Of a DNA stretch of 64,000 nucleotides, positions 1,557 to 40,373 are shown piece after piece; positions within the stretch are counted from its first letter, which is position 1, and each line of letters starts with the position of its first letter. The stretch is from the NCBI RefSeq assembly GCF_000233715.2, contig NC_021184.1, forward strand, positions 930,001-994,000, written 5' to 3'. The DNA is from Desulfoscipio gibsoniae DSM 7213 (lineage in GTDB: Bacteria > Bacillota > Desulfotomaculia > Desulfotomaculales > Desulfallaceae). A program made the translations under genes and the position numbers. The notes beneath the pieces were generated by a model. It did not search any database, was not told the origin of the DNA, and saw only the letters and a program-made list of their open reading frames with translations.

Positions 1557-3155
1557 GTGCCCACCGATAATCATGAACGGCTGTTGGACATCATTGACTT
1601 TCTTCCTGACGCTACCTTTGTAGTTGATTGTAGCGGAAAGGTAATCGTCTGGAACAGGGCCATTGAGGAGATGTCTGGGGTGAGCAGGGAAGCCATCATC
1701 GGCAGGGGTGGTTACACCTACTCGGTGCCGTTTTACGGCTATTCAAAGCCGGGACTGTTGGATTTTTTTGGCGTCGATGAAAAAGAGATCGCCCGGCAGT
1801 ATAAAAGTGTCCATAAAAAAAGCCAAACACTGTATGCCGAAGTTTTTGTGCCGCAAATATACCAGGGCCGGGGAGGTTATCTGTGGTTAACGGCCGCGCC
1901 CCTTTATGATAATGAAGGTCACCTGGCCGGTGGTATTGAATGTATCCGGGATATCACCGACAGCAAGAGACTGGAAGAGGAACTGTACCAGCACCGTCAC
2001 CGGCTGGAGAATTTAGTCCAGGAGCGGACCCGTGAGTTAGCCTGCGCCAATGAACTGCTGCAGCGGGAAATTCATGAACGCAGCTGTGTGGAAGAAACGC
2101 TGCGGGGAAGTGAAAAAAAGCTTAAAGAGCAGGTTGATTACCTGAATACATTGATAGAAAGCATGAATGAGCTTTTTTACACTTACGATACCAACGCCAA
2201 TATAGTGTTTATCAACTACAAATGCTGGGATGTTTTGGGTTATCAGCGGGAAGAATTGCTGGGCAGAAATTTGTTGGAGTTTGTGCCTGAAAAAAATAAA
2301 GCTGAAATTTATAGTGCAATTCAAGTTAGGCTGCAGCAGGGTGTGCCTGGCAGCTACGAAACAGAAATTATACATAAAAACGGGAGCAGCCGTTATGTGA
2401 GGCTGAATGTGTCGCCGGTTATCAAGGATGGACGGATCACCGGTGGTATGGTGCTGGCCGAGGATATCTCGGAGCAAAAGCGGGTGGAGAGGGAAATGGC
2501 CCACCTGGAGCGCTTGCGTATTGTGGGGGAAATGGCCGCCACCATCGGCCATGAGGTGCGCAATCCCATGACTTCGGTGCGGGGCTTTTTGCAGCTGTTG
2601 GGTGGCAAAGCGGACTGTCTGAAATACAAAGAAATTTTTGATTTGATGCTTGAGGAGCTCGACCGGGCCAATGGTATTATCACTGATTTTCTGTCCCTGG
2701 CCAGGAATAAGCCTGTTAAAAAAGTAATGCAAAACATTAACATACTGGTACAAAGTTTGTTCCCGCTATTGCAGGCAGATGCTTCAAAGGATCAAAAGAA
2801 TGTTGTTTTAGTACTGGATGAGGTGCCCGACTTGCTGCTGGATGCTAAAGAGATGCACCAGCTTATTTTGAACCTGGTGCGCAACGGGTTGGAGGCCATA
2901 CCCACCGGTGGCCGGGTGGTCATAAGTACAGCGGCAGCCTACAGCGAGGTCATTCTGGCGGTGCAGGATGACGGTTGCGGCATTGACCCCACCATGCTGG
3001 ATAAGTTGGGAACACCGTTTTGTACCACTAAAGATAACGGCACCGGCCTGGGGCTGGCGGTGTGCTATAGCATAGCCGCCAGGCATAATGCCTGTATAAC
3101 GGTGGACAGCAGCCCGTTAGGTACCACCTTTGCAGTGCGCTTTAAGCTGTCCTGA
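1557..3155 (+). CDS. Soluble PAS-PAS sensor histidine kinase
   Basis: A 532-residue cytoplasmic sensor kinase with no membrane segment. Order: PAS/PAC 1 (about 8-135), a charged coiled-coil linker (about 140-195), PAS 2 (about 195-310), a HisKA dimerisation helix with phospho-acceptor His332 in GHEVRNPM, and an HATPase domain with N-box NLVRNGLEAI (about 439), G1 DDGCGI (about 471) and G2 GTGLGLAV. This arrangement is typical of sporulation-type and AtoS-like kinases of Firmicutes. No response regulator is adjacent, so it is an orphan kinase whose partner cannot be named. Its HisKA-HATPase part closely resembles the kinase at 32641-34368, suggesting paralogues. It starts at GTG 1557 and ends in a terminator at 3211. 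Confidence 0.92.
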   Translation: MPTDNHERLLDIIDFLPDATFVVDCSGKVIVWNRAIEEMSGVSREAIIGRGGYTYSVPFYGYSKPGLLDFFGVDEKEIARQYKSVHKKSQTLYAEVFVPQIYQGRGGYLWLTAAPLYDNEGHLAGGIECIRDITDSKRLEEELYQHRHRLENLVQERTRELACANELLQREIHERSCVEETLRGSEKKLKEQVDYLNTLIESMNELFYTYDTNANIVFINYKCWDVLGYQREELLGRNLLEFVPEKNKAEIYSAIQVRLQQGVPGSYETEIIHKNGSSRYVRLNVSPVIKDGRITGGMVLAEDISEQKRVEREMAHLERLRIVGEMAATIGHEVRNPMTSVRGFLQLLGGKADCLKYKEIFDLMLEELDRANGIITDFLSLARNKPVKKVMQNINILVQSLFPLLQADASKDQKNVVLVLDEVPDLLLDAKEMHQLILNLVRNGLEAIPTGGRVVISTAAAYSEVILAVQDDGCGIDPTMLDKLGTPFCTTKDNGTGLGLAVCYSIAARHNACITVDSSPLGTTFAVRFKLS

Positions 3156-29970: not shown

Positions 29971-31281
29971 TTACTTCACGTGCTTCCCCATTGCCGGTGG
30001 TTGCTTATGGGCTAAATCCACGATTTCGCTGGCTAACAGCTGCAATCTTTCCCTTAGTTTAAACACGCAGTAGGAATTTTCCGCGTAACCCCGGACAATA
30101 TCCTCCGCAAGTGCCCGGCAGTTGGGCGAGCCACAGGAACCGCAGTCCAGACCCGGCAGCTGGGCGGTGATGTGCTCTACCTCCTCCAGCATGGTGATGG
30201 CCTGGTTGATATCGTCACTTAGCTGCAGTGTGGGACGCGGGGGGATGGGACCGGGGAGTCGGTAATAATCCGGGTCGCTGGGGAAGTCAGGTAACGGCTG
30301 CCGGCAGTCGGCCAGTTTTTTCAGCAGCTTTTCCATACGTACCCGGGCCACGAAAAGATTCTGGGGGGTCAGGGGACCGCCGATACACCCTCCTGTACAG
30401 GCTTGGGCCTCCACATAATCAATATCTGCCAGTTCACCCCGCTCAATCTCTTCCAATACATTAATTACATTGTGTATACCATCCACTGCCAGCAGCGCGT
30501 GTTCCTTGATGGCGTGATTTTCGCCGCCGGTTTTACCCCAGCCTACACCCAGGGCCGGTGACAGGCTGTTGCGCGAATCGTCGGCTGCGTCTGAAAGCCG
30601 TTGCAGTATAGCGCCGTAGATGTCGGACATGGAAAAAGCCCCGTCCACATAGGAACGCTTCCCAAATGGCTGCTTAACGGCGGTTACCTTGGCCGGGCAG
30701 GGGGTAATGAAGAATATACCTATGGCTTTATCGGCCAGGCCGTGTTCCTGCCGGGCTTTCTCCCGGGCCAGACGGGCTGAGACCTCCATAGGGGTTTCTA
30801 TGGGGGCGATGTGCTCTAAAAGGCCGGGGAACCTTACCTGCATCAGCCGTACCACCGCCGGGCAGGCCGAGGAAATCACCGGCTGGGGCCGGGGACGGTG
30901 TTCAATATAACGGCGCAGGTGATTGGAAACGGCCACGGCGCCCACGGCAACTTCATATACCTCGTCAAAGCCTATCTTTAAAAGGGCGCTCAGTATGTTG
31001 CCGGGCAGTACATCCGGTCCGAACTGGGCATATAGTGATGGGGCCGGAAGGGCGATGTTGTATTGATAGTCCGCCAGCTTCTCCAGCGGGTCGGTAATGG
31101 CCAGCTTGGCCCGGTTAGGGCAAATGCGGATGCATTCCCCGCAGTCTATACAGCGCTCCTCGATAATGATGGCCTGTCCCTCGCGCACTCGGATGGCTTC
31201 CGTGGGGCAATGTTTAATGCAATTGGTACATCCTTTGCACTTATCCCGGTCCAGCATGACCGAGTGAAAATAGTGTGGCAT
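29971..31281 (-). CDS. Sensory-type [FeFe] hydrogenase-like iron-sulfur protein (HsfB-like)
   Basis: 436 residues. Two [4Fe-4S] motifs (CKGCTNCIKHCP and CIDCGECIRICP) lead into a hydrogenase large-subunit-like domain with altered H-cluster motifs: SACPAVVRL, TPCPAKV and EAQACTGGCIGGP. Cys ligands survive but the usual TSCxPxW and ExMxC contexts do not. A C-terminal Fes-type cluster motif (CGSCGSPNCRALAEDI) follows. No Tat signal. This architecture belongs to the group often encoded with RsbW-like and DRTGG proteins near bifurcating hydrogenases, and a redox- or H2-sensing role is proposed. ATG 31281 follows CGGTGATTA; GTG 31290 is an alternative. Confidence 0.85.
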   Translation of the reverse strand: MPHYFHSVMLDRDKCKGCTNCIKHCPTEAIRVREGQAIIIEERCIDCGECIRICPNRAKLAITDPLEKLADYQYNIALPAPSLYAQFGPDVLPGNILSALLKIGFDEVYEVAVGAVAVSNHLRRYIEHRPRPQPVISSACPAVVRLMQVRFPGLLEHIAPIETPMEVSARLAREKARQEHGLADKAIGIFFITPCPAKVTAVKQPFGKRSYVDGAFSMSDIYGAILQRLSDAADDSRNSLSPALGVGWGKTGGENHAIKEHALLAVDGIHNVINVLEEIERGELADIDYVEAQACTGGCIGGPLTPQNLFVARVRMEKLLKKLADCRQPLPDFPSDPDYYRLPGPIPPRPTLQLSDDINQAITMLEEVEHITAQLPGLDCGSCGSPNCRALAEDIVRGYAENSYCVFKLRERLQLLASEIVDLAHKQPPAMGKHVK

Positions 31282-31282
31282 A

Positions 31283-31708
31283 TTAATCACCGCTTGTTTG
31301 GTTATTAATGATTGCCGTAAGCCGCGTGCCTACGTTAACCTCTGAAGTAAGCTGCATGTGGCTGGCGCTTTTTTTAATGTTGGGCAGTCCCATGCCGGCC
31401 CCGAAACCCATTTTTCTGATGTGGTCGGGGGCGGTGGAATAACCTTCCCGCATAGCTTGGGATATATCGGGTATACCCGGTCCTTCATCCACCGCCTCTA
31501 TTTCCACACGGTCCGGGTGAATGTATGCCGCCAGGCGACCCTGCCGGGCGTGAATGACAATGTTTAATTCGGCCTCATAAGCGACAATAACGGCTCGCCG
31601 CACGGTGTCCACGTGCATGCCCACCAGCTGCAGGGCTTTTTTTATTTGGGCGGCTGCTTCACCGGCCCGGTTGAAGTCCATACCTTGGACACTGAACTCC
31701 ATTTGCAA
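31283..31708 (-). CDS. Anti-sigma-factor-like serine kinase ATPase (RsbW type)
   Basis: 141 residues. GHKL ATPase fold with N-box AYEAELNIVIHA (about 45-56), G1 DEGPGIPD (about 87) and G2 GFGAGMGLPNIKK (about 112). There is no dimerisation or His domain. Relatives phosphorylate anti-anti-sigma factors; in this cluster type they probably signal for the HsfB-like protein. Its stop overlaps the start region of that gene, so translation is probably coupled. Confidence 0.85.
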   Translation of the reverse strand: MQMEFSVQGMDFNRAGEAAAQIKKALQLVGMHVDTVRRAVIVAYEAELNIVIHARQGRLAAYIHPDRVEIEAVDEGPGIPDISQAMREGYSTAPDHIRKMGFGAGMGLPNIKKSASHMQLTSEVNVGTRLTAIINNQTSGD

Positions 31709-32107: not shown

Positions 32108-32348
32108 AGCCCCTCACCCGCCTGTTAAAAAAATGTTTATTAGAGGATTAAGTGGTTAATAATTCAATTCTTAACCACTTATCAAAACCATTGTGCTTAA
32201 ATAGTAACGTATCTGCTTTTTTAAATCAATCACTGATTTATGGGTTTAGGGAAGTTGGTAGTCGTGCTTCCTAGATTCCCCGGCAGGGGGCATGCGATTC
32301 GGATGGAGAGACATAAAAACAGGAAGATGAGAAGCATAGTAATCACCG
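32108..32348. other. Intergenic region, nothing recognised
   Basis: About 240 bases between two minus-strand units. TTAAGTGGTTAA and TTAACCACTTA (about 32148-32180) form an inverted repeat that may end transcription or act as an operator for neither gene in particular. Confidence 0.35.
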
Positions 32349-32660
32349 CTAAGACGATCTGTTTTTTAACATATGTCTGATAGCATCAAGCGGGTGTATG
32401 TAAAGCATGCGAGGGCCTGAAAAACGCATTACTTTCTTGATTTTGCCTCGCATTTCTGGCTTGTAACAGTGCAGAGGGCATTTTTCACAGGTGGGCTTGT
32501 CATTGCCAAACCGGCAGTTATCCAGCCTTTTAGAAGCATAAACCAATAATTCCCGGCAATCATGGCACAGGTCTTGCCTCGCGCCGTGTTTCTTGCGGCA
32601 GTACAGTTTGATCATTTTGCATATAGTGTCTTTTTCGGCCTCAATGACTTGTTTTTTCAT
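32349..32660 (-). CDS. YgbA-family (nitrous oxide-stimulated promoter) protein
   Basis: 103 residues with eight conserved Cys: MIKLYCRKKHG, LCHDCRELLVYASKRLDNC and CEKCPLHCYKPEMRGKIKKVM, then RFSGPRMLYIHP. This small Cys-rich family is induced by nitrosative stress in enterics; the biochemical role is unknown but metal binding is likely. It overlaps the end of the histidine kinase gene by 20 bases, so it is the last gene of the agr-like operon. Confidence 0.85.
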   Translation of the reverse strand: MKKQVIEAEKDTICKMIKLYCRKKHGARQDLCHDCRELLVYASKRLDNCRFGNDKPTCEKCPLHCYKPEMRGKIKKVMRFSGPRMLYIHPLDAIRHMLKNRSS

Positions 32661-34368
32661 AGTCTATAATCCTTGCCCAGTGGGGCCTGCCTTGTTCCTT
32701 TGATGAACTAGCACCCTGTTTAAAAACAACGGAAAAAGTGGTGCCCCCGGTGCCGGTATCTATTTTTATGGCCGCATTATGTCGTGCAGCAATACTGAAA
32801 CAAACTGCCAAACCAAGGCCGGTTCCTTCTTCCTTGGTAGTAAAAAAGGGAGTACCGATTTTATTCAATGCCTCCGGGGCAATGCCGCAGCCCTGGTCCT
32901 TTACGGATAAAACCACTTCTTCATCTTTATCTATAGATGTTTTTATAATCAGCCTGCCTTTGGGTTGCATGGCCTCCAGTCCGTTGCGAACCAAATTCAG
33001 CAGCAGTTGCCTGATTTCCTTTTCATCAAGCAGCAGATCAGGCACCTCCTGCAAGTCCAATATTATAATTTTATCCGAGTTTACGGCATCCGCATTCATC
33101 AGCGGGGCCATGGCCTCCACAATGGCTGTGATGTTCTGCATTTTATAATTAACGGGTCTGTCCTTGGCCAGAGAAAGATATTCCGAGATTATTGAATTGG
33201 CACGGTCCAGTTCCTGAATCATCAAATCATAGTATTCTTTATACCTCAGGCAGTCCTCCTTGGCGCTAAGTATTTGTAAAAAACCTCGCACCGTAGTCAT
33301 GGGATTCCTTATTTCATGACCTATACCGGCAGCCATTTCACCCACCAGGTTAAGCCGGTCCAGGTTGGCCATTTCCTTTTCCATTTGCTTTTCCCCGGTT
33401 ATATCCTCAGCAAATTTTAAAATATGTGTAATCCGGCCCCCGGAATCCCTCAGGGAAGAAAGGCAAACATTTTCCCAGTAATATTCCCCGTTTTCTTTTT
33501 TGCTGATTATTTCCTCTTTCCATTCCCCGCCGGTTTTAATTATCTCCGATAACTGTTCTAAATTGTTGATCCGGTCACCTAAAAATTCCACAATCTCTTT
33601 GCCGTCAACATCTTGGAGTGAGTAGCCTGTGATGTGGGTAAAACTGTTATTAACATACTGTATCCTACCGCCGGTGTCCGCTATTACCACCATCGCCGGG
33701 CTTTGCTCCACGGCGCAGGATAGAACTTTGAGTTGTTCTTCGGCTTTCTCCCTGGAGGCGATTTCTTCCTTCAGGGAGCGCAAGCTTTGATTTAAATGCT
33801 TGTGGTGGTTCGCCTCCAAGTTGGTCAGCCCGCCCACAAGCCAGCCCATTACATACAACATACCAATAAAAAGCAGATGCGCTTCTATGGCCTGGTAAAT
33901 ATTTGTATGGCCTGCTGTAAAGGTGTTATACAAAACCAGTACAAAAGTACACAGGGTGGACATAACTAACCCACCTGTTTTACCGGCCATGGAAGCAGCT
34001 ACCAGAACGGGTAGCAGCAGGATGATTTCGATGTCATCAATGCTGTTGTCTACAGCCAGCAGGGTAACCAATGTTATAACCAGGGGAAAAGATAAGTAAG
34101 TTGCCTTGGTTAATGAAATAGTATTAATATCATCTAATAAAAAGTCCTTTCTTGTTTTTAAAATAAAAACAATGCCTAACGCAATTAATCCCACTCCTAC
34201 AAAAAAGCGAAGATTAATTATGGGATATATCTGGGCCGGTATAAAAAATTTATTACTGAGAACCAGTGAAGATATCATGACCAGAAGGCAAAGCATATGC
34301 GTAGTGATCAAATATTCCTGTAGCTCTTTTTCTCTATAGGGCATATTGTCCGTTATCATGCTCTTCAC
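32641..34368 (-). CDS. Membrane PAS sensor histidine kinase
   Basis: 575 residues. Five or six membrane helices (about 22-185) with very short loops, a coiled coil, one PAS/PAC unit (about 215-330: VVIADTGGRIQYVNNSFTHI), then HisKA with His351 in GHEIRNPM and HATPase with NLVRNGLEAM, DQGCGI and GTGLGLAV. The kinase core is a close paralogue of the one at 1557-3155. It lies 91 bases after the AgrD-type peptide gene, so it is the prime candidate receptor for that peptide, although it is not of the AgrC (HPK10) class. No response regulator is nearby. Confidence 0.9.
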   Translation of the reverse strand: MKSMITDNMPYREKELQEYLITTHMLCLLVMISSLVLSNKFFIPAQIYPIINLRFFVGVGLIALGIVFILKTRKDFLLDDINTISLTKATYLSFPLVITLVTLLAVDNSIDDIEIILLLPVLVAASMAGKTGGLVMSTLCTFVLVLYNTFTAGHTNIYQAIEAHLLFIGMLYVMGWLVGGLTNLEANHHKHLNQSLRSLKEEIASREKAEEQLKVLSCAVEQSPAMVVIADTGGRIQYVNNSFTHITGYSLQDVDGKEIVEFLGDRINNLEQLSEIIKTGGEWKEEIISKKENGEYYWENVCLSSLRDSGGRITHILKFAEDITGEKQMEKEMANLDRLNLVGEMAAGIGHEIRNPMTTVRGFLQILSAKEDCLRYKEYYDLMIQELDRANSIISEYLSLAKDRPVNYKMQNITAIVEAMAPLMNADAVNSDKIIILDLQEVPDLLLDEKEIRQLLLNLVRNGLEAMQPKGRLIIKTSIDKDEEVVLSVKDQGCGIAPEALNKIGTPFFTTKEEGTGLGLAVCFSIAARHNAAIKIDTGTGGTTFSVVFKQGASSSKEQGRPHWARIIDYEKTSH

Positions 34369-34458
34369 CCTCTTTGTAACGTTTTCATAAGTCAGGGGTG
34401 GAAATCACCACCCCCAATGCAATAGCCAAACATAATAAAATTCAAGATGAAAATTTTC

Positions 34459-34590
34459 TTATTTCCTCAGTGCTTCAGGTACCTCGGGTTGATAGTGGGA
34501 CATCGCGCATGCGCCGGCCGCGGTAACACTGGCTAAAAACAATAGTACCGAGACCATAAATACAAACAATCTGGCCATAACCCTTTTCAT
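34459..34590 (-). CDS. agrD: AgrD-type cyclic lactone autoinducer precursor
   Basis: 43 residues: MKRVMARLFVFMVSVLLFLA, then SVTAAGACAMSHYQPEVPEA and LRK. The amphipathic/hydrophobic leader, a Cys (residue 28) beginning the mature peptide region, and the acidic HYQPEVPEALR recognition tail are those of the cyclic-lactone autoinducer family (clostridial AgrD). AgrB would cut after the tail region and form a thiolactone from the Cys. AAAGGGGGTG lies 5 bases before ATG 34590, and agrB ends 13 bases upstream. The gene is too short for most gene callers. Confidence 0.88.
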   Translation of the reverse strand: MKRVMARLFVFMVSVLLFLASVTAAGACAMSHYQPEVPEALRK

Positions 34591-34603
34591 CGTTACACCC
34601 CCT

Positions 34604-35230
34604 TTATTTTTTGAATGAGATAGTATCAATAATTGACATTAGTTTATGTCCCCAAACGGTGAGCGTAAAACTTGTCCACAGCAAAGTTAAACTGATGCAG
34701 GCACGGGCTATTTCGGCATACTGCCACTGGCTGTCCCTGAACCACATTGCCGCAGCAGTTACCAACACCACAAAGGTAATGGAGATATATTTCAGCTTTT
34801 TCCTCCGGAGGGGCGATGTGATGGGGGCGGCGGGAGAATCCACCGGGGCCAGAATTATCATAGCAGTTATTCCCACCACAAAGGCTACGGCTGATAGTAT
34901 GTCAACAAACCCTTGGTTCAAGCGGCTGAAATATGCACCCAGCAGGGCAAGCAGGGGAAATATGACAACGGTGACAGCGGCGCAACGCAAGGGGGAATTT
35001 GAATGTGCTCCTCCGGCGCTGTGCCTGAATAATACTGCTACAACCAGGCAAGTTGCGACTCCGGGCAGTACTCCCAGGAAAGCTCCCAGCAGAAGCGTGC
35101 AGAAAATGTTCAAAAAGTTTAAGGCCAACACCTCAATAACATATGCCAGGATGGTTTCCTGCTCTGCCGGGAGGTCGGTTTGGCGACTCAGGTAACTGGC
35201 CCAGCGCCTGCTGAAGGATAGATAGCTCAT
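34604..35230 (-). CDS. agrB: AgrB-type peptide-processing membrane protease
   Basis: 208 residues with about five or six helices. The catalytic pair is visible in FRHSAGGAHSNSPLRC (His and Cys seven residues apart, about 76-91 from this start). AgrB cleaves the AgrD precursor and joins in thiolactone formation and export. ATG 35230 overlaps the stop of the preceding gene (ATGA), giving coupling; the frame is open to 35326 but without a site. Directly followed by agrD. Confidence 0.9.
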   Translation of the reverse strand: MSYLSFSRRWASYLSRQTDLPAEQETILAYVIEVLALNFLNIFCTLLLGAFLGVLPGVATCLVVAVLFRHSAGGAHSNSPLRCAAVTVVIFPLLALLGAYFSRLNQGFVDILSAVAFVVGITAMIILAPVDSPAAPITSPLRRKKLKYISITFVVLVTAAAMWFRDSQWQYAEIARACISLTLLWTSFTLTVWGHKLMSIIDTISFKK

Positions 35231-35688
35231 ATTTTCCACATACCTTCCAGATGTTTTCTGTACTTTGCAATAACCAGGGCAATGGCAATCATGATAAATG
35301 CCTGGGGCAACCCTATTAGCAACCACGTATACTCATCGGATATCAACTGGCTGACTTCCGCCTGTAAAAGGAAAATAAACAGTTCATGTATGGTAAGCTC
35401 CAGTAGCGACAGAATGGCATAACCAGCGAACACGACAACAAAGCTTGTGGAAGGTGGTACCCTGGTGGCCTTGGCGATAAACAGCACGCACAATAAAATA
35501 AACGCCACGGTGTGCAGCCCGAAGGTGACAGGCATGTTCCGAATAATATAAATTACTATCGTCAAAATACTTGCGAAAGCCAGGATCACTCCCCAGCGCA
35601 GTTTTACTCTGGCCAGAGCCAGGCTGCAGGCAATAATGCCCGCAAGTTCGGGTATTCCCTGTAGATAAAATAATAATGTCTCAATCAT
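35227..35688 (-). CDS. Five-helix membrane protein of the agr-like operon
   Basis: 153 residues, nearly all in five hydrophobic helices with few charged loops (KATRVPPSTS, AEVSQLISDEY, KYRKHLEG). It looks like the isolated membrane part of an AgrC/GHKL-type receptor without its kinase domain, but I cannot assign a family with confidence. Its stop overlaps the agrB start, so it is the first gene of the operon. It might cooperate with the PAS kinase as peptide sensor or act as an immunity or transport protein. Confidence 0.7.
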   Translation of the reverse strand: MIETLLFYLQGIPELAGIIACSLALARVKLRWGVILAFASILTIVIYIIRNMPVTFGLHTVAFILLCVLFIAKATRVPPSTSFVVVFAGYAILSLLELTIHELFIFLLQAEVSQLISDEYTWLLIGLPQAFIMIAIALVIAKYRKHLEGMWKI

Positions 35689-36162: not shown

Positions 36163-36235
36163 AAAATTATAATTTAAGATATAGAGAAAAAATGAACAAA
36201 TATGCTTGTTAAATAGTAAAAAAGGAGGTTTTGTT

Positions 36236-36808
36236 TTGGCGGTTAATTTACAAAAGGGACAAAAGGTGGATTTAACGAAAGGTAGACCCGGACTTTCCAA
36301 GGTTATTGCCGGTCTGGGGTGGGATACCAATAAATTTGACGGTCCCGACTTTGATTTAGATGCATCGGCTTTTCTGTTGGGTGAGAACGGTAAATGCGCC
36401 AGTGCCGATGACTTTGTATTTTATAATAACTTAAAGCACGCCAGCGGTTCTGTCGAGCATTTAGGGGACAACCTTACCGGTGAGGGCGAAGGTGATGATG
36501 AGCAAATTAAAATTGATTTAAGTAAAGTGCCCGCTCATGTTCACAAAATTGCCCTTACTGTGACCATTCACATGGCCAGTGAGCGCAACCAGAATTTTGG
36601 TTTGGTATCCAACGCCTTTGTCCGCATAGTGGACGAAAACTCAGGCGCGGAACTACTGCGTTACGACCTCAGTGAGGATTATAGTATTGAGACTGCTCTG
36701 GTGTTTGCAGAGCTTTACCGGCATGGTGCAGAGTGGAAGTTTGCCGCTGTAGGCCAGGGATTTAATGACGGATTGGCTGGTCTGGTACGCTTGTATGGTT
36801 TGGAATAA
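36236..36808 (+). CDS. terD: TerD-family protein 1
   Basis: 190 residues beginning [15 protein letters not shown], the canonical TerD start. The Ca2+-binding centre is [19 protein letters not shown] (about 75-93), and the C-terminal EVYRHxGEWKF equivalent is [18 protein letters not shown]. TerD proteins bind Ca2+ and form the surface scaffold of the Ter stress system that confers tellurite, colicin or phage tolerance. TTG 36236 lies 7 bases after AAGGAGG. It is the first of three tandem terD genes. Confidence 0.93.
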
Positions 36809-36823
36809 GAAGGGAGCATTTAA

Positions 36824-37441
36824 GTGATTAACCTACAAAAAGGGCAGAAGATTGATCTCACTAAAACCAACCCCGGCTTAACTAAAATTATGGTGGGTTT
36901 GGGCTGGGACCCCGCCGATAATCATGGTGGTGGCGGGAAAGGCTTACTTGGCAGTTTGTTTGGCGGGGGAGCTAAGACCAGTAATATTGACTGCGACGCC
37001 TCTGTGTTCATGCTTGATGCCAAAGGTAAGTTGGCTAAGAATAAAAACCTCGTTTACTTCGGCAATAAGACAAGCCCCTGTGGTAGCGTGCGCCATTCGG
37101 GTGACAATCTCACCGGAGAGGGCGATGGCGATGATGAACAAATTATGGTGGACTTGTCCAGGGTGCCTGCTGATGTGCACCGGCTGGTGTTTGTGGTGAA
37201 TATCTACGACTGTGAAAAGCGCAAGCAACATTTTGGTATGATTCGCAATGCCTTTATTCGTGTTGTAAACACTTCAAATAATCAGGAACTATGCAAATAT
37301 AACTTGTCCGAAGGATATGAGAACAAGACAACGCTGATTACCGGAGAAGTGTACCGCCATCAAGGGGAGTGGAAGTTTGCCGCTTTGGGCGAATCTACCA
37401 CAGACCCGGGATTACAAAGCTTATCAAGGCGGTTTTTATAG
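36824..37441 (+). CDS. terD: TerD-family protein 2 with Gly-rich insertion
   Basis: 205 residues with the same core ([19 protein letters not shown]). After GLGWDPADNH it carries an extra Gly-rich loop (GGGGKGLLGSLFGGGAKTSN, about residues 36-55) absent in copies 1 and 3 but also seen in the C-terminal half of the fusion at 45242 (LLGSLFGGGGGG). GTG 36824 follows AAGGGAGC. Such loops are seen in TerD variants and may mediate assembly. Confidence 0.92.
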   Translation: MINLQKGQKIDLTKTNPGLTKIMVGLGWDPADNHGGGGKGLLGSLFGGGAKTSNIDCDASVFMLDAKGKLAKNKNLVYFGNKTSPCGSVRHSGDNLTGEGDGDDEQIMVDLSRVPADVHRLVFVVNIYDCEKRKQHFGMIRNAFIRVVNTSNNQELCKYNLSEGYENKTTLITGEVYRHQGEWKFAALGESTTDPGLQSLSRRFL

Positions 37442-37505
37442 GTATATAATGTCAGAGATAATAGACAGGGGATATGATAAAGGGTAAAACAGGAGGTTCA
37501 ATATA

Positions 37506-38084
37506 ATGATATCACTGGCCAAAGGTCAAAAAATAGATTTAACCAAAACCAACCCCGGCCTGACTAAAATTATGGTGGGTCTTGGTTGGGACACCAATAA
37601 ATATGATGGTGGCAACGAATTTGATTTAGATGCCGTGGCTTTTTTGGTTAACTCGGAAGGCAAGGCCACCGGTGACGGGGCATTTATATTCTACAACAAC
37701 AAACAGGATCCCAGCGGTTCAATTGTTCTATCGGGGGATAACCGTACCGGTGAAGGGGAAGGCGATGATGAAACGGTTAAAATAAACTTGGCCGGTGTTC
37801 CCGCCGAGGTACAAAAAATTGCCATCTGCATTAATATCCACGAGGCTGATACCCGCAACCAAAATTTTGGTCAAGTGTCCAATGCCTTTGCACGGGTAGT
37901 TAATGAAGACAATGGCGAAGAAATCCTTCGCTATGATTTGGGTGAGGATTACTCAATTGAAACTGGCCTTGTGGTGGCTGAAATATATCGCCATAACGGC
38001 GAGTGGAAATTTAGTGCCGTGGGCAGTGGTTTCCAGGGTGGCCTGGCTGCGCTGGCTGCAACCTATGGTTTGAACGCCGGCTAA
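37506..38084 (+). CDS. terD: TerD-family protein 3
   Basis: 192 residues, standard TerD length and motifs ([54 protein letters not shown]). ATG 37506 follows AGGAGG. It ends the terD triplet, and a terminator follows at 38126. Confidence 0.93.
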   Translation: MISLAKGQKIDLTKTNPGLTKIMVGLGWDTNKYDGGNEFDLDAVAFLVNSEGKATGDGAFIFYNNKQDPSGSIVLSGDNRTGEGEGDDETVKINLAGVPAEVQKIAICINIHEADTRNQNFGQVSNAFARVVNEDNGEEILRYDLGEDYSIETGLVVAEIYRHNGEWKFSAVGSGFQGGLAALAATYGLNAG

Positions 38085-38125
38085 TAAGATTAAACTTTTC
38101 AAGCATAATACCACTAACTGTATGC

Positions 38126-38155
38126 AAGGGGTGCACATTTTGGCACCCCTTTATC
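38126..38155 (+). terminator. Terminator after the terD triplet
   Basis: AAGGGGTGC (38126-38134) pairs with GCACCCCTT (38143-38151), followed by TATCC. The T-tail is short. Confidence 0.65.
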
Positions 38156-38418
38156 CTAGACCTGCTGTTTGGCCGGCTGTAGAATTACTTTTGCTGCCAA
38201 GACCTTGCCTTTAGTTGTATTGGTAATAACAACGGACTGGTTTTTGTTATTACCCGCACCGGCTATCGTTGGCGCTGATTACCTGGCTGATGCCTGTGCA
38301 CACCCTGTTGATATCTGTTGGCTTAAGCCGGTGCGTTGGTAATAGCCATGTGGGTGGAAAGGGCCCTGACGCTTTATCAAACTATACGTGATGTATACTA
38401 AGGAGGAATTTTGAAGAA
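38156..38418 (+). other. Intergenic region, possible DUF192 relic on the minus strand
   Basis: About 260 bases. The minus strand from about 38285 to 38156 reads VVITNTTKGKVLAAKVILQP before a stop, similar to the first strand of DUF192 proteins, with no start and nothing else of the domain. A GTAATAACAA/TTGTTATTAC inverted repeat lies at about 38222-38252. Ribosome site AGGAGG at 38401 serves terC. Confidence 0.3.
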
Positions 38419-39189
38419 TTGGATGCAATAACAGGATTTCTATCGGGGCTGCTGGTCAGCTATGGGCAATTCTTTTCCTGGGATGCCATAGTTGGGGTGG
38501 TCACTGACCCGGTAAGTTGGGGCATCATTTTCTGGCTTGTCATATTGGAAGGCCTGTTATCCTGTGATAACGCGCTGGTTCTGGCCGTGGTGGTAAGGCG
38601 TCTGCCCAAGCACCAGCAGAAAAAAGCGCTTCTTTACGGTATTTGGGGTGCGTACTTTTTCCGCTTTGTAGCCATTGGATTAGGTGCTTATTTAATTAAA
38701 ATACAATGGGTGCAGATACTGGGGGCGGGATATCTTTTATGGATGTCCGCCAAATACTTTATGTCCAGAAAACAAGCGGAACCCGCCGCTGATGATCATG
38801 ATGATGAGCCCAAGGTGAGGAGAGGTGGTTTTTGGGATACCTTTTGGGGTACAGTAATTACCGTTGAATTAATGGATATTTCCTTTAGTGTAGATAGTAT
38901 CCTGGCTGCCTTTGCCATGAGCGATCAAGTCTGGGTATTATTTATGGGTGGTCTGCTGGGTATCTTGATGATGCGGGGCGTAGCCACCATATTTATTAAA
39001 TGGCTGGAAAAATACCCGACCCTGGAATCCGCCGCTTATGTACTAATTGCCTTGATTGGTGGCAAACTAATGGGCCAGGCCTTTGGCTACCATGTTTCCC
39101 ACTACGTACTATTTGGAGTTATGGCGGCGGTGTTGCTGGGTACCATGGTGTTGGACCGCATGCGTGAAGGTGGCAAAAAAGAGGCATGA
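38419..39189 (+). CDS. terC: TerC-family membrane protein
   Basis: 256 residues, seven or eight helices. It has the TerC signature LEGLLSCDNALVLAVVVRRLP (about 48-67) and the paired ELMDISFSVDSILAAFA (about 153), both with intramembrane Asp residues proposed to move metal ions. TerC works with TerD in the Ter system and has been linked to Mn2+ export in other Firmicutes. A His/Asp-rich loop (DDHDDE) separates the halves. The stop overlaps the next start (ATGA). Confidence 0.92.
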   Translation: MDAITGFLSGLLVSYGQFFSWDAIVGVVTDPVSWGIIFWLVILEGLLSCDNALVLAVVVRRLPKHQQKKALLYGIWGAYFFRFVAIGLGAYLIKIQWVQILGAGYLLWMSAKYFMSRKQAEPAADDHDDEPKVRRGGFWDTFWGTVITVELMDISFSVDSILAAFAMSDQVWVLFMGGLLGILMMRGVATIFIKWLEKYPTLESAAYVLIALIGGKLMGQAFGYHVSHYVLFGVMAAVLLGTMVLDRMREGGKKEA

Positions 39190-40373
39190 GTTATTTTAGT
39201 TATCTAACTGATGAACAAAAGCAAAGGATATTTTATATCTCTCCTTACCAGGGTCCTTTGGATAACGATAAGCATACACTGGCCCATGCTTTGGGGGCCA
39301 CCTTATACATGCCCGGCACGCATTACAGGGCAATCAGCAGTATAGTTGATCATCAAATTCCCGGGCTAGTTTCCACAGTGTTATGTCTGGAGGATGCGGT
39401 GGACGACCGGGATGTGGACGATGCTGAAAAAAACCTGGTACTGCAGCTTGGTCAGCTGTCTGTCCTAAAGATAAAGGGGAGTGTACTCCCCTTTATCTTT
39501 ATCAGGGTCAGGGATCCCGAACAGTTTCAAAGGATTACCCGATCTTTTGGCACGGCGCTGGATGTTTTAACCGGGTTTGTTTTTCCTAAATTTGAAGTCG
39601 GTAGAGGTGGGGAATACTTTGCTCACCTGGCGGAAACCAACGCCCGGCTGGGAAAAAGGTTTTACGGTATGCCTATATTGGAGAGCCCCCAGGTGATTCA
39701 CCTGGAATCCAGGGTCACACACCTTTTAAATATAAAAAAATTATTGGATCGATACAAAGATATTGTTTTAAATGTACGCATGGGGGCCACAGATTTATCA
39801 GGCTTATATGGTCTGCGCAGGAGTCCCGAGCTGACCATATATGATATTGCGGTGATTCGTGATTTTATTGCCGACTTGGTGAATATTTTTGGCAGGCCCG
39901 AGGACGGTTATGTGTTATCCGGGCCGGTCTGGGAATATTTTTCCTCGGGCTCCAGGGTGTTAAAGCCGCAGCTTAGACAAACCCCCTTCCAAGAGCAGTT
40001 TGGCAGTGACGGCAGCAAACTGAGGGAGAATCTTCTGTGCAGTTATATCGACGGGCTTATCCGGGAAGTAATGCTGGATAAGGCTAACGGTTTAATAGGC
40101 AAGACCATCATTCACCCCACCCACCTGCTGCCGGTACAGGCCTTGTATGCTGTGACCCACGAAGAATATTGCGATGCCAGGGACATACTGGCCAACAGTG
40201 AAAGTGGTGGAGTTACTAAAAGTATTTATAACAACAAAATGAATGAAGCCAAACCGCATACCAACTGGGCCAAAAGAATCATGACGTTATCTAAAATATA
40301 TGGGGTGCTCAATGAAAAGTATGATTACACAAGTATCATCTACGAAGGAGAAAAGCTTCAAAGTATTGGATAG
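39186..40373 (+). CDS. HpcH/HpaI-like aldolase/lyase of the Ter biosynthetic module
   Basis: 395 residues, a CitE-like TIM-barrel variant: LCLEDAVDDRDVDDAE with acidic metal ligands, FIFIRVRDPEQF, GFVFPKFEVG, PILESPQVIHLE and IIHPTHLLPVQALYAVTHEEY. It is the C-C lyase always found in the Ter-associated biosynthetic set proposed to make a nucleoside-like metabolite. Its stop lies 62 bases inside the next gene, and its start overlaps terC, so terC-lyase-PRTase are tightly coupled. Confidence 0.88.
   Translation: MSYFSYLTDEQKQRIFYISPYQGPLDNDKHTLAHALGATLYMPGTHYRAISSIVDHQIPGLVSTVLCLEDAVDDRDVDDAEKNLVLQLGQLSVLKIKGSVLPFIFIRVRDPEQFQRITRSFGTALDVLTGFVFPKFEVGRGGEYFAHLAETNARLGKRFYGMPILESPQVIHLESRVTHLLNIKKLLDRYKDIVLNVRMGATDLSGLYGLRRSPELTIYDIAVIRDFIADLVNIFGRPEDGYVLSGPVWEYFSSGSRVLKPQLRQTPFQEQFGSDGSKLRENLLCSYIDGLIREVMLDKANGLIGKTIIHPTHLLPVQALYAVTHEEYCDARDILANSESGGVTKSIYNNKMNEAKPHTNWAKRIMTLSKIYGVLNEKYDYTSIIYEGEKLQSIG

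Follow-up and report, generated by a model that had tools for sequence, protein, structure and literature searches.

The stretch of DNA under investigation (64,000 nucleotides of contig NC_021184.1 of Desulfoscipio gibsoniae DSM 7213, positions 930,001 to 994,000, referred to as the window) harbors on its minus strand, at positions 32349-35688, a variant of the agr peptide quorum-sensing system with a putatively split receptor and exchangeable outputs. Its core is a conserved cassette with the organization TM5-AgrB-AgrD-[six-helix domain]-output, where TM5 is a free-standing five-helix membrane protein and the last gene joins a six-helix membrane domain to one of two interchangeable outputs. 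When the sets of genomes searched were pooled, 93 distinct complete cassettes were obtained, 37 with a PAS-HisKA kinase, as in the window, and 56 with a GGDEF + HD-GYP protein; this recurrence of the gene set rules out that the genes are chance neighbors. The host is a spore-forming sulfate reducer, and the response arm of the system consists of a receptor-like membrane protein and a sporulation-type kinase rather than of the usual kinase/regulator pair. As a whole, and judging from sequence comparison, it is reasonably probable that the locus is a split-receptor peptide quorum cassette feeding the Spo0 phosphorelay. The initial annotation, which had described an agr-like operon with a non-AgrC kinase and a nitrosative-stress-type protein, is partly supported by these data; it had missed the relationship of TM5 to the sensor domain of AgrC, the sporulation-type residues of the kinase and the replacement of the kinase elsewhere by an enzyme of cyclic diguanylate (c-di-GMP) metabolism.

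Organization of the agr Locus and the Predicted Peptide

All five genes of the operon are present, in the order TM5 (35227-35688), agrB (34604-35230), agrD (34459-34590), kinase gene (32641-34359) and ygbA. The agrB ATG overlaps the stop codon of TM5 as ATGA, and agrD, which has 43 codons and is preceded by an AGGGGG-type ribosome site, starts 13 nucleotides behind agrB. The statement that all five genes overlap or abut does not quite hold, as agrD and the kinase gene are separated by 99 nucleotides (or by 90, with the GTG at 34368 as start of the kinase).

Both signal genes score above the curated cut-offs, AgrD with 37.6 bits to TIGR04223 (cut-off 19), so that the proposed assignment of the short gene to the AgrD family is borne out, and AgrB with 135.6 bits to PF04647 (cut-off 23). 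The G-G-A-H and C residues of AgrB, including the His/Cys pair already noticed (H76 and C83), are invariant among 33 aligned rows, and the protein is expected to act as the membrane peptidase that cuts and cyclizes AgrD. On the basis of these matches, AgrBD peptide signaling by the locus is nearly certain. In 91 of the 93 cassettes AgrD contains a Cys, or a Ser in five cases, followed by four residues, then mostly by an aromatic residue, and then by a QPEVP-like (QP.VP-type) tail; the other two (L223 and L229) have Cys + 5. This pattern leads to the prediction of the ring CAMSH here, that is, by homology, a secreted thiolactone peptide with the ring Cys-Ala-Met-Ser-His, the tail of the propeptide being YQPEVPEALRK. 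Among the agr peptides already described, rings of five residues and lactones formed with Ser both occur (PMC12312760, PMC5322536).

The rings of the two classes have different compositions: those of the kinase class show Ser/Thr at position 4 in 26/37 cases and never end in Trp, Phe or Tyr, and those of the GGDEF class have His, Trp or Phe as last residue in 42/54. Genomes harboring both output forms carry different rings, as exemplified by CAISH and CWALH in genome G003 (L081 and L102).

The D. gibsoniae genome has five more matches to AgrB, of which one is a short remnant, and as many more to AgrD that exceed the cut-off. At C1:3065465-3065833 (L006, L010) there is a second agrBD unit that looks like a decayed duplicate, with an AgrB open frame of only 78 codons and an AgrD whose score equals that of the AgrD of the neighboring locus C1:3071765. 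In the AgrD at L018:5687-5809 the ring would begin with Ser rather than Cys (TSWFGYHQPEIP), making a lactone peptide possible.

Conservation of the Cassette and Exchange of the Output

Sixty relatives were searched, and an AgrB match was found in 54 of them and a TM5 match in 49. The six-helix domain is present in 31 of the 35 neighborhoods fetched from these genomes; in 18 it is joined to HisKA and in 13 (L097-L099, L101, L102, L104, L106-L109, L112-L114) the last gene encodes a six-helix protein with intact GG[DE]EF and HD-GYP-type motifs, an identity confirmed by Pfam for 5 of the 13. The check proposed in the initial annotation, whether the five genes stay together in related genomes, thus has a split outcome: the agr genes and the kinase (or its GGDEF/HD-GYP substitute) do, and ygbA, found in 0/35, does not. 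Concerning the remaining four neighborhoods, L091 and L094 have AgrB without a six-helix match, L111 lies at a contig edge, and in L115 a HisKA kinase in which no six-helix domain was matched belongs to a TM5-rich cassette. In one genome AgrB (L091) and a TM5-TM5-AgrD-kinase part (L110) are on different contigs. As for the genomes of the same genus that were searched, the kinase form occurs in 6/6 and the GGDEF form also in five. A scan of named genomes disclosed 44 loci, 40 of them with the six-helix domain (26 HisKA, 12 GGDEF and 2 cut off); they include loci of Desulfoscipio geothermicus DSM 3669, Sporotomaculum syntrophicum, Desulfotruncus arcticus, Desulfocucumis palustris, Pelotomaculum propionicicum and Desulfotomaculum copahuensis.

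The search was extended to the phylum using the six-helix domain as the only query, with no agr gene. Matches were retrieved in 80 of 398 genomes (63 at E < 1e-9), with at most seven candidates scored per genome; 75 of the 102 resulting rows were read, five of which were already in the other sets, and 27 were left out (22 with E > 1e-9, and five at contig edges or weak). The 71 distinct six-helix proteins thus read (L188-L254) comprise 53 GGDEF/HD-GYP proteins, 17 HisKA kinases and one that is cut, the GGDEF/HD-GYP form being the commoner in this sample. Neighbors were counted for the 67 proteins whose gene has at least 1300 bases upstream: within 2.5 kb and on the same strand, AgrB is found in 56/67, AgrD in 57/67 and TM5 in 59/67, although a second six-helix gene in the same stretch could count the AgrB of its neighbor. 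AgrB or AgrD is present anywhere in the fetched stretch in 60/67, and TM5 alone in 3/67 (one of them 5.3 kb off).

In the tree built on TM5 and AgrB, from which the output gene was excluded, the output label requires five changes, at least four of them forced by the starred branches, in comparison with a mean of 29 after shuffling; the tree was obtained with a quick method and has some long branches. The two output classes alternate on it, which indicates that outputs have been exchanged several times. The agr loci ending in a six-helix GGDEF + HD-GYP protein possibly represent a direct peptide-to-c-di-GMP circuit; this sister form, with the enzyme in the same place as the kinase, would wire a peptide quorum signal straight to c-di-GMP. 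On a wider scale, the odds appear evenly balanced that TM5 and the six-helix adenylyl-cyclase-like domain form, throughout the phylum, a universal peptide-receptor socket without a dedicated two-component pair, whose output has been repeatedly exchanged, a kinase of the sporulation phosphorelay alternating with an enzyme of c-di-GMP synthesis/breakdown, and through which a cyclic peptide would directly set either the second messenger or Spo0A.

TM5, a Putative Detached AgrC-Type Sensor Domain

Up to E 1, neither Pfam nor NCBIfam gave a match to TM5. Its profile matches residues 3-140 of the fused AgrC-like kinase of L019 (hhalign probability 98.6%, E 1.1e-15) and residues 7-149 of that of L020 (98.1%, E 9e-14), two further agr loci of the same genome; because of these matches to the N-termini of fused kinases, TM5 is, as far as profiles can tell, a detached AgrC-type sensor domain, and it is proposed to be a subunit of the receptor of the autoinducing peptide (AIP). 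The two fused kinases themselves match the model of staphylococcal AgrC weakly, with 57.1 and 42.8 bits against a cut-off of 500; LytTR response regulators accompany both of them, and locus L017 also has a response regulator. At loci L017 and L018 of this genome a TM5-like protein is likewise separate and stands beside a short kinase (52 bits to the AgrC model in L017), showing that the separation of sensor and kinase recurs. The combination of a separate TM5 with a six-helix kinase is present in this genome at the window locus only, where its single six-helix match lies.

The structure model of TM5 consists of five long helices and a short one (predicted local distance difference test, pLDDT, 95.5). 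Three residues are near-invariant (E14, H59 and E97), all of which are aligned in the fused kinases L019 and L020. Sequence comparison with solved structures gave no match up to E 1, and the fold search none with E < 0.5 (best Z 5.2), which is not evidence of a new fold. A relationship between TM5 and the six-helix domain is unsupported (hhalign probability 0.2%). Two or more TM5 genes are found in 18 of the 93 cassettes.

Some loci of the phylum sample depart from the usual arrangement. In L230 and L238, TM5 lies beside six-helix kinases and agrB/agrD were not found in the stretches read; these two loci, together with L243, the second unit of L242, L252 and L254, pair TM5 with a six-helix kinase either in a different gene order or with AgrB missing, and they possibly encode listening-only receptors.

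The Six-Helix Domain

The six-helix membrane domain (HKn) of the kinase, delimited by alignment at 33745-34359, is a module in common with the GGDEF/HD-GYP proteins. Its model (pLDDT 81) was compared with 188 chains, and it resembles the membrane adenylyl cyclases AC5, AC8 and AC9 (Z 8.0-11.9, root-mean-square deviation 3.2-4.2, 179-192 aligned residues) and the diguanylate cyclase ImcA (Z 10.6, root-mean-square deviation 5.0, 192 aligned), the next row having a Z of 5.8; Z values below about 13 can reflect a common helical arrangement. Foldseek returned no significant match for this domain (E 0.63 or worse), and the sequence search against solved structures only three unconvincing rows, none with E < 0.09. 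The fold class of the six-helix anchors of adenylyl cyclases includes proposed receptors, and an anchor of this design has been exchanged for a Vibrio quorum sensor (PMC4821796).

The Kinase Output and the Spo0 Phosphorelay

The output part of the kinase (32641-33744) contains, according to Pfam, a PAS domain (PF13426, 63.1 bits), HisKA and HATPase, in agreement with the view that it is not an AgrC kinase. The absence of a response regulator from the locus was also verified: the receiver-domain match nearest to the HisKA domain is 44 kb away, which makes the kinase an orphan. Davidson and others (PMC6136694) used the orphan status of a kinase, the possession of a PAS domain and six HisKA residues to predict the kinases of the Spo0 phosphorelay, the six residues being TAGFQL in KinA, TSGFQI in KinC and TTGFQL/M/F in Desulfotomaculum acetoxidans. 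The window kinase, as read from its sequence, has all three of these features, its specificity residues being TTGFQI, and all 18 related kinases of the 35 neighborhoods keep T[TSV]G[FY]Q[LIMY].

As a control within the D. gibsoniae genome, sporulation-type residues were found in 9 of the 38 HisKA matches; eight of these nine are at least 3.1 kb from any receiver domain, and the remaining one lies in the same open frame as such a domain. Of the other 29, which include four matches without a readable residue set, 25 are within 2.3 kb of a receiver domain. For the downstream components the genome offers the following candidates. A protein with a SPOB_a domain, located between ribosomal L27 and OBG, is taken as Spo0B by neighborhood and domain, following the rule of PMC6136694. 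Spo0A is present (TIGR02875, 415.6 bits). The Spo0F gene is known as a neighbor of the aldolase gene, and the candidate Spo0F of this genome is a receiver-only protein two genes from a class II aldolase. Spo0F is a plausible target of the window kinase and, given the orphan status and Spo0F-type residues of this kinase, the likeliest circuit would run from the cyclic peptide through a TM5/six-helix receptor and the Spo0 phosphorelay to sporulation.

Another orphan kinase with sporulation-type residues (TSGFQL) is encoded at 1557-3155 on the plus strand of the window, 75 kb from any receiver-domain match.

Proposed Model and Identity of the Receptor

In the proposed model AgrB would cut and cyclize AgrD, as do its homologs, and the resulting secreted peptide, with the ring Cys-Ala-Met-Ser-His, would be sensed at the membrane by TM5 complexed with the six-helix domain of the neighboring protein, as homology and gene linkage suggest. 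The six-helix domain might then switch the output attached to it: here the PAS-HisKA kinase, most likely feeding Spo0F-Spo0B-Spo0A and so coupling entry into sporulation to population density, and in relatives a GGDEF/HD-GYP enzyme setting c-di-GMP. The pairing of TM5 with the kinase is likely on sequence grounds, and a receptor made of two proteins is the simplest reading.

Several data weigh against this model. Over the 91 cassettes with the Cys + 4 pattern that the covariation analysis requires (L223 and L229, with Cys + 5, are excluded), the partial covariation of the ring is 0.147 with the six-helix domain vs. 0.067 with TM5, and it is 0.165 vs. 0.041 in the 73 cassettes with a single TM5. 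Four of the 67 six-helix proteins have neither an agr gene nor TM5 in the stretch read, AgrB is absent at some loci (L110, L204 and L243), and the six-helix profile was itself built from agr-linked proteins. Moreover, the candidate Spo0F rests on neighborhood and protein type and not on a Spo0F model.

The covariation might be explained if the six-helix domain itself were the peptide receptor, TM5 being an accessory protein such as an exporter, a dampener or a second peptidase acting on the leader of AgrD to remove it. This is possible, if doubtful. The likeness of the domain to the membrane adenylyl cyclase and ImcA anchors (Z 8.0-11.9 vs. 5.8 for the next row) and the replacement of such an anchor by a Vibrio quorum sensor (PMC4821796) are in line with it, as is, for an accessory role of TM5, the occurrence in this protein of the near-invariant E14, H59 and E97. 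However, such Z values may reflect a common helical arrangement, E14, H59 and E97 also line up with the two fused AgrC-like kinases, in which the domain is expected to serve as a sensor, and TM5 accompanies six-helix kinases where AgrB/AgrD were not found (L230 and L238). Covariation, taken as proof of receptor identity, gives no clear answer, the ring varying with both proteins: within the GGDEF class it is 0.142 for TM5 vs. 0.091 for the six-helix domain, and within the HisKA class there is a tie (0.171 and 0.166, respectively). By its homology and by the company it keeps in L230 and L238, TM5 appears to be the better candidate for peptide binding.

A different alternative leaves the signaling part unaltered and assumes that the kinase phosphorylates a dedicated regulator encoded elsewhere in the genome instead of Spo0F. 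There are 43 receiver-domain matches in the genome, and the residue rule predicts an interaction spectrum rather than a single partner (PMC6136694); nevertheless, the residues of the window kinase match those of verified phosphorelay kinases and the motif T[TSV]G[FY]Q[LIMY] is kept in 18/18 related six-helix kinases, and we consider a dedicated regulator unlikely.

Comparison with Known Systems

The locus shares with the agrBDCA, fsr and lam systems the AgrB peptidase, an AgrD with a Cys (sometimes Ser) + 4 ring and an acidic P..P tail, and, in TM5, a homolog of the sensor half of AgrC-like kinases. It differs from them in that AgrC appears to be split, and in place of its kinase half and of AgrA, the LytTR regulator, there is a six-helix protein whose output is either PAS-HisKA or GGDEF/HD-GYP; the locus therefore has neither the fused AgrC sensor-kinase nor the LytTR regulator of a canonical agrBDCA system. 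CqsS, one of the proteins to which the six-helix domain can be compared, is a kinase. With the anchors of CqsS, ImcA and the membrane adenylyl cyclases the domain appears to share the design of a six-helix bundle that leads into a cyclase or kinase via a long helix (PMC4821796); unlike them, it is agr-linked and has no sequence match with E < 0.09 among solved structures. With the orphan PAS sporulation kinases (KinA-E, and Dtox_1918 of D. acetoxidans) the window kinase shares the PAS-HisKA-HATPase architecture, orphan status and Spo0F-type residues, and it is distinguished from them by its linkage to a peptide-signal operon and a putative detached sensor subunit.

An influence of agr on c-di-GMP genes or on early sporulation has also been described in Clostridioides difficile, where the effect is seen in the transcript levels of an agrA mutant or its route is called unknown, whereas in the cassette described here agrBD and the gene of the enzyme or kinase are neighbors (PMC3754575, PMC11210211). 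According to a 2024 review, the AgrD1 peptide of C. difficile promotes early sporulation through a pathway that is unknown and whose elucidation may yield a Spo0A activator (PMC11210211). In the environmental spore formers analyzed here, one conserved cassette brings together the genes of the peptide, of a receptor-like subunit and of a kinase predicted to act on Spo0F, and this makes the link between peptide and sporulation directly testable. No description of either the kinase or the GGDEF form of the cassette was found in the open-licence literature searched, subscription papers and preprints being outside the search.

The Intergenic Hairpin

The gap between agrD and the kinase gene holds a stable hairpin (34392-34417, minus strand). 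When gaps of 35-200 nucleotides were compared with dinucleotide shuffles, the hairpin beat all eight of them in 27/29 HisKA and in 47/51 GGDEF gaps (74/80 overall, window included). A hairpin also follows agrD at three of the four other agr loci of the genome (L017, L018 and L020, not L019; no shuffles were made there), so that it is not special to this cassette; attenuation, processing or stability are possible functions, and it might, as a guess, serve agr operons in general for setting stoichiometry. No Rfam family matched the hairpin at 34392-34417, one match below the gathering score being taken as chance, and promoter and terminator scans of the locus did not exceed the chance level.

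ygbA and Neighboring Genes

The last gene of the operon, ygbA (32349-32660, minus strand), lies outside the conserved cassette. It is the only match to PF11756 in the genome. It was found at none of the 35 neighborhoods of relatives and at none of the 44 loci of named relatives, sets in which at least 1000 bases behind the six-helix gene were covered in 30/31 and 37/42 cases, respectively; among the phylum loci it occurs only at L186, which is the window's own place, with at least 500 bases behind the gene covered in only 41/72. YgbA was therefore ruled out as a component of the cassette. In strain L (G006), which matches the part of the window beyond ygbA, the stretch compared (L085:6001-7100) has no counterpart of window positions 32238-32700, so that this stretch is either a local insertion here or a loss in strain L. 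The idea that the peptide system is built with a nitrosative-stress protein, which could be sustained by the strength of the PF11756 match (143 bits) and by the 20-nucleotide overlap of ygbA with the kinase stop codon, falls with the absence of the gene from the other related loci examined and of a counterpart from the strain L stretch, and is very improbable.

Downstream of the operon, at 29971-31708 on the minus strand, the gene of a small anti-sigma/HATPase-like protein is immediately followed by that of a [FeFe]-hydrogenase-like protein, which has ferredoxin and FeS domains; in strain L (L085) the cassette is followed by proteins similar to these. On the other side, at 36206-40373 on the plus strand, a row of genes diverging from the agr cassette comprises three for TerD, one for TerC and one of the C-C bond lyase family.

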